Virus record (IMG/VR): IMGVR_UViG_3300015360_000188
Coordinates: 1-24,935 of that record
Source: a virus
Strand: one strand, 5' to 3'
Length of the DNA stretch: 24,935 bases
Part shown: piece by piece, positions 12,684-24,935 of the stretch
How positions within the stretch are numbered: position 1 is the first letter of the stretch
How the letters are laid out: each line of letters starts with the position of its first letter
Position numbers and translations under genes: made by a program
The notes under the pieces: model-generated
The model's database searches: none
Told to the model about the DNA's origin: nothing
What the model saw: only the letters and a program-made list of their open reading frames with translations

Positions 12684-12687
<4 letters not shown>
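11329..12687 (+). CDS. Tail fibre protein with collagen-like segment (452 aa)
   Basis: The start is an ATG 29 bases after the previous gene; the ribosome binding site is weak (TTAGAAAG). Residues about 1-90 are the shared anchor-like domain (PYILTKSNGR, LTFLGKN, ENFLYLLENFAN, NPLQGQIWYDT, IKVYNGSAF). About 125-215 is the second shared domain (VLKITVNNQDVAVFSYEAF, VVKGLTLIDT, WGTASAAAQA). Residues about 264-305 are a collagen-like stretch with repeated GFFGSRGF(A/T)GS and TNGTNGTTG. The C-terminal ~100 residues are a beta-rich domain (SANRQVFATGSITISGG, GDIIIVDGNG, GNGVAGIKF) common in phage appendage proteins. It is probably a second long fibre. The stop overlaps the next start in an ATGA junction. 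Confidence 0.8.
12118..12243 (+). repeat. Collagen-like coding repeat in fibre gene
   Basis: The 20-base sequence starting GGATTCTTTGGATC occurs at 12136-12155 and again at 12199-12218, 63 bases (21 codons) apart. It encodes GFFGSRG inside a Gly-x-x rich stretch. The organisation parallels the repeat at 10032-10180 although the DNA unit is different, so the two stalks arose separately or diverged long ago. Confidence 0.8.
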
Positions 12688-13135
<448 letters not shown>

Positions 13136-13139
<4 letters not shown>

Positions 13140-15269: not shown

Positions 15270-16505
15270 TCAGGTATCGAATTCCTTGTAATAGATAGTT
15301 TGCCCAAACGGAGCTTCAATTGAAGTGGTTCCATGTCCCACAAACAATGTATCGGCATAGTCCGGGTCGCCCCATCCACTGTTTGGATACATGTCAGTGA
15401 ACATAATGAACTTCTTTGGTTCAATTCCGTTCTTCTTCATAAATTCCCAGTTGACTTCAAAGTCGGTACCACCACCACCCTTGGGATGATAAGTCAGGAT
15501 ATCCTCTCGTGTGTCACTGGTGAACTCGGCGAAATTGTAAACCTGAGTATCAAAGCACCACAGGCTCAATTTGAAGTCGGCGTATTCGTCCATAATGCCC
15601 TTAACTTCGCCGAGCATGTCTTGGGCCATCGCGTCGGAAATACTGCCACTCATATCAAATGCTACACAGACGTCGATTGTCTCTTCTTGCAGTAGACCTG
15701 GAAGAACGGCACCGCAATGTTGACTTTTTCGATTAGGGCGGGTGAAACTGTAGTTGCTGCGGAGGATGCTTTGAATGTTCATTCTTAAGATTTCACGCCA
15801 GTTCATTTGCGGTTCAGTGAATTCCTGGATTAATCGACGAACGCCTTCGGGCAACTTGCCTGCGGTCTGAGACGCTGTTATCATAGCATCTCTAATTTCC
15901 TTGCGGATCTCTTCTAATTCTTTTTCAGAAAGTACTGGGCGACCGTCGGCAGATTCGCTATCCGCGCCACTTGGATCAAGGTGTTCGTCGAGTAATTGAC
16001 CCAATGCATTGATATCAATTTTGGTTGCATTTTTTAAGAGATCATCATAGATCTGCTCGTAGCTCCAGCCACGATACTTGTTGTCTTGGAAAATCTTAAT
16101 AAACGAAGGCACATCGCCAATTCGATCATCTTTGAGGATCTGATTAACTGCAAAGTCGGCTGCAATATTTGAAATCATTGGATCTCTTGAACTGCGGCGA
16201 CCGATGTGATCAAACACATTGTGGAGGATTTCGTGTGCAAACCCAAACTCTACTTCTTTTGGCTTTAGTTTTTTGACAAAGTCCACGCTATAATAGAAAT
16301 TGCGTCCGTCTGTTGCTAGTGTTTCGAGCCAATCACTAGCGTCAATTAGTTTCATTCGAGTAGCCATGTTGCCAAAGAACGGATGTCTTAGCAAGAGACC
16401 TACTCGAGCAGTAACGAGTTTTTCAATCACCTCATTTTTTTCTTGTTGAGTGTGTTGTTTCTTAACCTTGGGGTGTGCGACAGAAGCAGTAGTAGCTTTA
16501 GACAT
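15270..16505 (-). CDS. VWA-like putative metallopeptidase protein, MoxR partner (DUF2201 type)
   Basis: The start is chosen at the ATG at 16505, not the in-frame ATG at 16517: TGGAG lies seven bases before the former, and the consensus promoter at 16528-16555 would start transcription near 16521, leaving almost no leader for the latter. The 411-residue product has two domains. The N-terminal one carries HEILH at 91-95 followed by NIAADFAVNQIL, the metal-site pattern of the putative metallopeptidase domain of DUF2201 proteins (PF13203). The C-terminal one is a VWA-like domain (PF09967) with a MIDAS-type DMSGS at 284-288, GGGGTD near 347 and FTDM near 371. Such proteins work with MoxR AAA+ ATPases in bacteria as chaperone-like remodelling pairs, and a MoxR gene lies directly upstream here. 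Substrate unknown. Confidence 0.85.
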   Translation of the reverse strand: MSKATTASVAHPKVKKQHTQQEKNEVIEKLVTARVGLLLRHPFFGNMATRMKLIDASDWLETLATDGRNFYYSVDFVKKLKPKEVEFGFAHEILHNVFDHIGRRSSRDPMISNIAADFAVNQILKDDRIGDVPSFIKIFQDNKYRGWSYEQIYDDLLKNATKIDINALGQLLDEHLDPSGADSESADGRPVLSEKELEEIRKEIRDAMITASQTAGKLPEGVRRLIQEFTEPQMNWREILRMNIQSILRSNYSFTRPNRKSQHCGAVLPGLLQEETIDVCVAFDMSGSISDAMAQDMLGEVKGIMDEYADFKLSLWCFDTQVYNFAEFTSDTREDILTYHPKGGGGTDFEVNWEFMKKNGIEPKKFIMFTDMYPNSGWGDPDYADTLFVGHGTTSIEAPFGQTIYYKEFDT

Positions 16506-16527
16506 ATAGGGCTCCATTGATGTTTAC

Positions 16528-22982: not shown

Positions 22983-24086
22983 TCAAATATATTCGTTAAT
23001 GATTTCCAACATCTTTTCGCTATGAAAATATTTTTCATAGCAATTCTGCACATAATGTTCAATCTTTGGAACAAACGTGTGATAATTCTCCATTTGAAGT
23101 TTGATTAGATTTGTCAGTAGTTGCTTTTTGTCTTGGTATGATTGGGTGTTATATGTCCAGCTGCTGGGATACAGGAATTCTGGATAATCTCGAAATATTT
23201 CACTGTAACTTAATCGTTTTGGCATCATAGGTATGGAGTTAACTAACGGACCTTCAGCACATGTTGAAATGCCTAGTGTTTCTTGCAGGTTAGCACTGAA
23301 TACAATTTTTGATTGTCCCAGCAGTGTGTGATATTCGTGTTTGGTGAGTTGTTTTTCTTGACAGACTACAAATTCATATTCTGGCAATTCTGCTTCTAGG
23401 TCTTTGAAGATTTCTAATTGTTTTTCTGGAGCAATTCTATGTGGAAATACAATAAGATCACGCTTTGGTAATTTGGCGTATGGAGCCATTGTTTGCTTCA
23501 TATATTCCATTGGCCAACCACTACGCACGATCTTTTTATTGATCAATTGTCGATCAATCCAATGATCGGTGTTAGCCTTAAACAACTCCATTTCGACCAG
23601 TTCATAATGATATTTGGTTGCAAAATAATTGTGATCAATTGCATGGTAGATTGCACGTTCTGTTTCACGAACCCAATTGGCATCTCCTATGATTCTGCCT
23701 AAGAAATCATTTTTGTCATATGATCCGGCATGCCAGTGTCCATGTAGAACCCATTGTTGGCCAAGCAGTTCCTTCATATATTTCAATTGTAAAATTACCG
23801 GATTCCACGCATCAGTGAAGATAAAATGATCAGATGCAGTAACCAATCCTTGATTAAATTTCTCAAGGAAGTTGCATAACTGACTGCTCTTCCAATAGTT
23901 AGTATCTGAGAAATTCAGGAATGCTCCGGGCGTAGGAACTGTGTTTTTCTGAATGCCGTCAATTTGTTGCACATTGAATCGATGACCAAATCGCTTTGTT
24001 AATAACTCTGGAATGTGTGTATGCCATTGTCCAGTGTATCTAGTTTCGATTGGTTCTAGTGCAAATATCCAAATATTTGGTGACAT
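22983..24086 (-). CDS. GT-B glycosyltransferase (phage type)
   Basis: This 367-residue protein has the two-lobed GT-B layout. The N-terminal lobe (about 1-200) holds WIFALEPIETRYTGQWHTHI, HFIFTDAWNPVILQLKYMKE and a VLHGHWHAGSYDKND segment. The C-terminal lobe (about 205-340) opens with LIVFPHRIAPEKQLEIF, the usual nucleotide-sugar lobe signature, and continues with LGQSKIVFSANLQETLGIS TCAEG, where E269 and E278 sit at the donor-binding EX7E-type position. There is no membrane segment or signal peptide, so it is cytoplasmic. In phages such enzymes glucosylate modified DNA bases or decorate virion proteins; no base-hydroxymethylating enzyme is visible nearby, so the acceptor is open. AAAGG precedes the ATG, and it has its own promoter with a palindromic spacer. 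A 102-base gap separates it from folE. Confidence 0.8.
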   Translation of the reverse strand: MSPNIWIFALEPIETRYTGQWHTHIPELLTKRFGHRFNVQQIDGIQKNTVPTPGAFLNFSDTNYWKSSQLCNFLEKFNQGLVTASDHFIFTDAWNPVILQLKYMKELLGQQWVLHGHWHAGSYDKNDFLGRIIGDANWVRETERAIYHAIDHNYFATKYHYELVEMELFKANTDHWIDRQLINKKIVRSGWPMEYMKQTMAPYAKLPKRDLIVFPHRIAPEKQLEIFKDLEAELPEYEFVVCQEKQLTKHEYHTLLGQSKIVFSANLQETLGISTCAEGPLVNSIPMMPKRLSYSEIFRDYPEFLYPSSWTYNTQSYQDKKQLLTNLIKLQMENYHTFVPKIEHYVQNCYEKYFHSEKMLEIINEYI

Positions 24087-24272: not shown

Positions 24273-24280
24273 TATAAATA
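24273..24280 (+). promoter_or_regulatory. T4-type late promoter (perfect TATAAATA)
   Basis: The octamer TATAAATA matches the T4 late consensus at all eight positions, the only perfect copy I found in the window. With T4 spacing, transcription would start at about 24286. This matters for the start of the downstream gene, because an ATG at 24286 would then have no leader. Confidence 0.7.
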
Positions 24281-24285
24281 TTGCT

Positions 24286-24935
24286 ATGAATATGAGAGAA
24301 ATAATTAATATTGTTGAAGGGGTGGACGACTTGGCAAAAATGAACCGCCGAAGGTTTCTCCAAGGTCTTGGATCACTCGGTACAACGGCGCTGGCGCCTG
24401 GCAAGGTGGCGGCGGGGGCGGCCACGAGGGTGTTAACGAAGTCGCTGGCAGCAGCTACTTCTCCGAGGGCATTGGCCGCTTTATCAGAACTTATGAAAAC
24501 ATTTAATCCAGAGATAGTAAGATCAATTTTTACGGCCAGGGAGCTTAGACACTATGGCTGGAGACCAGTACGTGACATATTAGAGAAACACGGATTTAGT
24601 GAAATGACAGAAATTGTCTGCCCTATTTGCAATGGTTCTGGTTCGACGTCCGAGCTTAATAAGTGGGGAGATCATAGATGTCTCAAATGTACCGATGGAT
24701 ACAAAGTAATCTTGCCTTATCAGCACCCCAACCTTTACAAAGGAGATTCCAATCCAGACAGCCCCGACATCGATACGGGAAACGGGGAATGGACACTCGA
24801 GCATTTTAGATCGGCATTCGATCCAGATCAATTTGTGGATTTAAAAAAAACGCTTGAATCAAATGCATTAGAATGGTATCGAGGGGTGGCTCGAACTATG
24901 GGAGTAAAGGTTGGCCCTGTGGGGCCGAAACGCGG
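24286..24935 (+). CDS. Unfinished gene: twin-arginine-like N-terminus plus zinc ribbon, 3'-truncated
   Basis: An uninterrupted frame of 216 codons runs off the right edge. From the ATG at 24286 it encodes MNMREIINIVEG, then MNRRRFLQGLGSLGTTALAP at 19-38, which fits a twin-arginine signal (RR at 21-22, F24, L25, weakly hydrophobic Gly/Ala stretch). An Ala-rich stretch follows to about 67, then a helical region. A four-cysteine zinc ribbon follows: CPICNGSGS at 112-120 and CLKC at 132-135, of the DnaJ CxxCxGxG kind. Two starts compete. The ATG at 24286 (or 24292) lacks a ribosome binding site and would be leaderless from the late promoter. A TTG at 24331 has AAGGGG (24317-24322) eight bases upstream and would begin MAKMNRRRFLQ. 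Signs of function: late promoter, intact frame. No named family recognised. Confidence 0.65.
   Translation, partial: MNMREIINIVEGVDDLAKMNRRRFLQGLGSLGTTALAPGKVAAGAATRVLTKSLAAATSPRALAALSELMKTFNPEIVRSIFTARELRHYGWRPVRDILEKHGFSEMTEIVCPICNGSGSTSELNKWGDHRCLKCTDGYKVILPYQHPNLYKGDSNPDSPDIDTGNGEWTLEHFRSAFDPDQFVDLKKTLESNALEWYRGVARTMGVKVGPVGPKR

Follow-up and report, generated by a model that had tools for sequence, protein, structure and literature searches.

The DNA analysed here, referred to as the window, is the entire record of a virus fragment of 24,935 bases, with T4-like tail genes on its + strand and DNA and nucleotide genes (thymidylate synthase, exonuclease, QueE and GTP cyclohydrolase) on its − strand. 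One conserved gene of the window (15270-16517) shares 63-69% identity with its counterparts in IMG/VR fragments and in giant genomes that reach 355 kb, and the PA5oct-type jumbo phages are more distant relatives of the region. We read the source phage as a T4-like giant phage. On the + strand, over 20 consecutive glycines precede GPGLRPDAQYQQV at the end of the protein encoded at 12684-13139. The gene neighbouring the frame described below (22983-24086, − strand) encodes a protein of 367 residues that looks by eye like a glycosyltransferase; it gave no convincing PHROG or Pfam match, and a search of IMG/VR yielded no relatives.

The window closes with an open frame that is cut by the contig end (Table 1). 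It starts at ATG 24286, the first in-frame ATG after a stop located five codons upstream, and its N-terminus reads MNMREIINIVEGVDDLAKMNRRRFLQGLGSLGTTALAPGKVAAGAATRV..., with MNMREIINIVEG as residues 1-12 and MNRRRFLQGLG as residues 19-29. An earlier note on this DNA had described the frame together with its leader peptide, MNRRRFLQGLG and a zinc ribbon, and all of these could be read at the place given.

Table 1. Features of the open frame at the end of the window and of its upstream region.
Feature	Position	Strand	Basis or remark
TATAAATA, T4-type late-promoter-like element	24273..24280	+	exact match, one copy
Open frame: leader, twin-arginine-like segment, Ala-rich stretch and zinc ribbon	24286..24933	+	216 codons seen, frame cut by contig end
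Capsid-targeting-like leader MNMREIINIVE	24286..24318	+	predicted cut after E11 (IVE/G), alternative after E5 (MRE/I)
Alternative start: AAGGGG Shine-Dalgarno-like site and TTG, would drop the leader	24317..24333	+	direct sequence reading
Twin-arginine-like segment MNRRRFLQGLGSLGTTALAPGKVAAGAA	24340..24423	+	Pfam TAT_signal and alignment with clear leader-plus-Tat proteins of other phages
C4 zinc ribbon CPICNGSG...CLKC	24619..24690	+	sequence; weak Anti-TRAP / PaaD ribbon hits

The element upstream of the frame, TATAAATA, had been called the sole perfect copy in the window, which is correct; since 1.38 copies are expected in the window by chance, however, the count of one is no evidence and only the spacing is informative. 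In nine related genomes, TATAAATA clusters ahead of genes, on their coding strand and at a distance of 12-45 bases, and a subclass of 22 genes has merely 12-16 bases between element and start, leaving little room for the usual Shine-Dalgarno (SD) sequence. ATG 24286 stands 13 bases from the element and has no SD ahead of it. TTG 24331 does possess the good ribosome binding site ascribed to it (AAGGGG with an 8-base spacer), and this codon is the one chosen by a gene caller that relies on SD sites. Translation from the TTG would turn MNMREIINIVEG into an untranslated chance sequence and the product into an ordinary late protein, either Tat-like or cytoplasmic. The TTG is 58 bases away from TATAAATA, though, which is not a common spacing class in the relatives, and the peptide upstream of it agrees at 9-10 of 10-12 positions with leaders found on unrelated phage proteins (10/12 residues identical to the leader in the contig L049, 9/10 to REFINIVEG leaders). 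Because the 13-base spacing belongs to a common class and the upstream peptide matches phage leaders, we favour ATG 24286 and regard initiation at the TTG as very improbable. The class with 12-16 bases, drawn from the genomes G001-G011, includes virion structural genes as well as leader genes such as MLLRELFED; such a spacing would imply leaderless or nearly leaderless late mRNAs.

The leader peptide recurs as a reusable module. A search of IMG/VR with a degenerate DNA pattern for RE[LIFM]INI[VIM]E[GA] returned 56 stretches, nearly all of which are N-terminal in proteins unrelated to the window protein. Near-identical peptides start unrelated proteins in L049 and in about 53 further contigs. 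The commonest carrier is a family of ~145 residues beginning with M[IM]REFINIVEG... and giving a weak PGDYG match, and in L049 MNIRELINIVEG stands in front of a pterin-4a-carbinolamine dehydratase. The latter protein (L049:2340-2831) ends in a basic tail, CSNPRGFSQRAHCQGRKKKKE, which CSHPKGFSQRAHCAGKKKH in an otherwise different G001 protein (311952) resembles.

In the genomes related to the window, dozens of genes begin with M[KR][IL]xE[LI], often followed by a second [LI]xE. We took a census of the gene calls in PA5oct and nine relatives of the window (2916 genes), using shuffled columns as the null. The six-residue pattern M[KRHN][ILFMV]x[ED][ILFMV] was present at 57 starts against 10 expected, and the stricter M[KR][ILV]xE[ILFV] at 32 starts against 3 expected. 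A second [LIVMF]xE at residues 6-12 was found in 53% of the leader proteins versus 10.5% of the others, a difference partly inflated by the hydrophobic residue 6 of the pattern; from the unconstrained residue 7 onward, the values are 39% and 9%. Examples are MKIRDLITE/GM, MRIKDLLIE/GM and MRITEILLE/GK in the relatives and MKINDIITE/GY in PA5oct. NT5C, GH19 and Pterin_4a occur among the cargo behind the leader, as does a weak match to PARP. NELVDFVE matches to the broad pattern were discarded as leaders, being internal to a different conserved protein. At one locus (L206, G002:C1:49175-52281), four adjoining genes have a common leader and encode a PARP-like protein, a kinase-like protein (by eye, with no Pfam hit), a protein of 122 residues and a leader-plus-Tat protein; L206 has the appearance of a virion payload island.

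The PA5oct record flags the proteins that were detected by ESI-MS/MS, which links the leader to the virion. Of the 445 PA5oct coding sequences, 93 are marked; among the 12 with a leader start, eight are (hypergeometric p about 7e-4). The stricter pattern gives 4 of 6 (p about 0.02), and this is the cleaner figure because the looser pattern was widened after the PA5oct list had been seen, whereas the stricter one was fixed before. A gp21/S77-type protease (PF03420) was detected with E 1e-24 or better in 8 of 12 large relatives, including 5 of the 6 largest; as the window record is a 25 kb fragment, it is from these relatives that the protease would be expected in its own genome. The leader itself ends in an (L/I)xE site of the prohead-protease type, IVE/G at residues 9-12. 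The N-termini of T4 ipII and ipIII are capsid-targeting sequences cut by gp21 (PMC9026906), and both proteins start with MKTYQEFIAE/A. The capsid-targeting interpretation offered in the earlier note is thus well supported for this class of leader by its modularity, the mass-spectrometry correlation in PA5oct, the protease of the relatives and the site; the cleavage is predicted, and packaging of the window protein is likely.

Behind the leader, the cysteines C112/C115 and C132/C135 make up one zinc ribbon. Its description as DnaJ-like holds in the sense of a single CxxCxGxG motif within a C4 ribbon. A DnaJ zinc-binding domain was rejected, since four CxxCxGxG repeats are needed and the window has one CPICNGSG and one CLKC; Pfam DnaJ_CXXCXGXG gave no hit. 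We consider the ribbon ordinary, its motif being widespread in phage proteins, and no function can be read from it. It was also rejected as a guide to homology: 95 IMG/VR stretches with CPICNGxG were mostly small unrelated ribbons, none of which aligned well. Leader-bearing ribbon proteins are present in G002 and G003 (MRIKDLLIEGM... and MKIRDLITEGM...), and their comparison with the window protein was not significant. Two leader proteins, L279:11050-11622 and G002:C1:87708-88280, carry a CxxCxGxG ribbon pair and no Tat segment. At the sensitivity used, neither peptide patterns in IMG/VR nor tblastn in INPHARED revealed a homologue of the whole protein or of its mature part. The same holds for 45 related records, where a G002 protein matched in its Tat and Ala-rich part, a repetitive protein of G006 matched weakly, and nothing else did. 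An AlphaFold model of the single-sequence fragment was uninformative (mean pLDDT 42).

The paired arginines occupy residues 21-22, nine residues past the predicted cut, and the motif would thus lie near the predicted mature N-terminus. Pfam TAT_signal scored window residues 18-37 at 15.6 bits, below the cut-off of 22.7, NCBIfam TIGR01409 did not match the window protein, and the hydrophobic stretch of the motif is weak. The segment is therefore suggestive rather than canonical, and the Tat step is the weakest one for the window protein because both curated cut-offs failed. One could imagine that the leader targets the prohead and that the segment is a basic, Ala/Gly-rich stretch binding the core, DNA or a membrane, with no export signal in it. 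The sub-threshold score would agree with such a role, as would the basic nature of T4 internal proteins (PMC9026906) and the lack of Tat in most leader proteins of the relatives. This explanation has to contend with seven other phage records that have the exact [ST]RRxFLKG and reach the curated thresholds, several of them at the corresponding place beside a leader, and with the strong conservation of the Tat stretch between G002 and L315. We consider it unlikely, albeit worth keeping in mind.

The twin-arginine claim of the earlier note, sub-threshold for the window motif, gains from independent phages, where the pairing is far clearer. A leader followed by Tat recurs in MRIYEISRRDFLKGLG, in MKIDEVTRRDFLKGLG, in MRLYEF...LAEIDRRGFLKGLG and in two GH19 lysozymes. 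The sole significant cross-genome match of the window protein among the 45 related records is the one in G002 (E 6.5e-5), covering residues 17-153, mostly Tat and Ala-rich sequence. Conservation from residue 16-19 with no upstream peptide had been named as evidence against the leader; the match does begin at residue 17, but the G002 protein reads MRIYEISRRDFLKGLGAAGIAAATGAKLP, in which its own leader, MRIYE, is fused directly to ISRRDFLKG. TAT_signal was above its cut-off in the leader proteins of G002 (30.1), L315 (28.7) and L326 (26.9), and L328/G069 reached 23.1 as a stretch and 19.0 as a whole protein (cut-off 22.7). TIGR01409 was above its cut-off in G002, L328 and L326. Scanning IMG/VR for RR[DG]FLKG[LF]GA yielded 12 stretches, including MKIDEVTRRDFLKGLG (L315) and MRLYEFTGKTIEEMLAEIDRRGFLKGLG (L326). 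Leader, Tat and a GH19 lysozyme are combined in both G001 (MRIYEITREDLTRRGFLGG) and L328 (MLIKEVTEDLSRRGFLGALG), which are 73% identical. When G002 and L315 were aligned, 23 of the first 28 columns, comprising leader and Tat, were identical, compared with only 83 of 262 past column 60. Moreover, an [LIVMF]xE ends 0-4 residues before the RR in 8 of 14 phage Tat motifs, against a rate of 8% elsewhere. The leader module common to MS-detected virion proteins of PA5oct recurs and adjoins Tat signals above curated thresholds in other phages, and these relatives support the pairing of leader and putative Tat signal. Four of the 14 motifs have no leader (L321, L322, L323 and L325). L323, L325 and L322 show clear Tat-like N-termini (MDRRDFLKGLGALASMPFVG, VVSRRDFLKGLGALALTPLAG) and apparently belong to other phage types. 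A Tat motif of this kind was absent among the called genes of PA5oct.

The IMG/VR scan for RR[DG]FLKG[LF]GA also yielded Tat copies that lie further inside their frames, directly behind [LIV]xE: ELDEINRRGFLKG (L316), FLLEITRRDFLKG (L318) and ELLEEAINRRDFLKG (L317). In G011, a frame of 1442 residues starts with MILREFFKRTLLEGG and has GVAEAGIDRRGFLKGLG at residue 1154. The internal Tat follows VAE in G011 (1442 residues), LLE in L318/G067 (994 residues) and LDE in L316/G065 (742 residues). In this position, it could serve as an N-terminal signal only after a cut, so the cut would be part of the design, at least in those frames. The frames look polyprotein-like (L262/L336 on G011:C1, the 1442-residue frame on the − strand with its start near 60.7 kb; L331 and L333 in G067 and G065): those of G011 and G067 open with a leader, and VAEG/VAEA or LxE sites recur along the frames, one of them immediately preceding the Tat motif within.

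Such deep copies, some of them hundreds of residues into long frames, bear on a further scenario, in which the leader is the mere n-region of an ordinary Tat signal and the late protein is exported, unpackaged, by the cell that makes it, for instance to bring about lysis or a change of the surface. The late-promoter-like element would suit this scenario; Tat motifs begin just 2-9 residues past the leader in several proteins, and GH19 cargo would fit lysis. Leaders of 5-7 residues (G002, L315) would leave the Tat usable before any cut, which makes export in the producing cell a live rival. However, this leader family also heads many non-Tat proteins, MS-detected virion proteins among them, which speaks against the scenario, as do the deep Tat copies. 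Overall, we find this scenario rather improbable.

The best reading of the window protein, in our view, is that its leader is removed by the prohead protease and that the host Tat system exports the protein after injection; we advance it tentatively, as nearly as likely to be right as wrong. The late-expressed gene would encode an internal head protein of a T4-like giant phage, whose first 11 residues would act as a capsid-targeting sequence for entry into the prohead core. A gp21-type (S77) prohead protease would cut after IVE at residue 11, and the mature protein would be ejected along with the DNA. The host Tat translocase may then recognise the twin-arginine signal nine residues into the new N-terminus and move the folded zinc-ribbon protein across the inner membrane, or anchor it there, early in infection. 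Related phages would use the same architecture for other cargo, including GH19 cell-wall hydrolases. Late expression, prohead entry and leader removal draw on T4 biology and on the evidence for the leader class; packaging of this particular protein, its exact cut site, and Tat recognition with export after injection are what we infer.

We judge the window protein to be of the T4-type internal-head-protein kind, with its novelty in the Tat-type signal behind the leader. Like T4 IPI, IPII, IPIII and Alt (PMC9026906, PMC5694885), it starts with a short leader whose core is [QKR]E[FIL]I and which ends in a predicted (L/I)xE cut site; an S77 protease (here in the relatives), putative late expression and diverse cargo behind one leader are further parallels. 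Unlike them, it bears a Tat-type signal behind the leader, and the cargo is a zinc-ribbon protein or, in the relatives, a GH19 lysozyme. The known internal proteins of T4 work in the cytoplasm, where Alt targets RNA polymerase and IPI restriction (PMC9026906, PMC5694885). The ejection proteins of phiKZ-like giant phages, SPN3US being one example, are likewise packaged in the head, processed by a prohead protease and ejected (PMC5694885, PMC7411985), steps which are predicted from sequence here; their propeptides mostly exceed 100 residues and are cut at AxE/SxE, whereas the leaders here have 5-11 residues and end in [LIV]xE. With bacterial Tat substrates (PF10518, TIGR01409), the phage proteins share [ST]RRxFLxG and a following Ala/Gly-rich apolar stretch, often ending in AxA, but they are encoded by phages, and their motif follows either a leader of the prohead type or an [LIV]xE within a long frame. 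The PA5oct-type jumbo phages (Arenbergviridae) have related window genes and the same leader class on virion proteins; they differ in that no such Tat motif was seen among the called genes of PA5oct.

Phage proteins packaged in the head are generally assumed to work in the cytoplasm. In the open-licence literature, we found no report of head-packaged Tat substrates, nor of this leader in these phages. T4-like giant phages may possess a two-address payload system, in which a removable capsid leader packages effectors and the protease cut leaves a Tat signal or, in the long polyprotein-like frames, exposes one, for the re-export of the folded, injected effectors to the host periplasm at the start of infection, a proposal that we hold to be quite possible and yet somewhat doubtful. 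The idea of a leader followed by a Tat signal is open to standard packaging and Tat reporters. The sequence rule (leader E5, [LI]xE site, then RRxFL) could serve to single out virion effectors among uncultured giant phages, of which there are thousands. If true, the arrangement would deliver folded enzymes, a GH19 lysozyme for instance, to the periplasm immediately upon injection.
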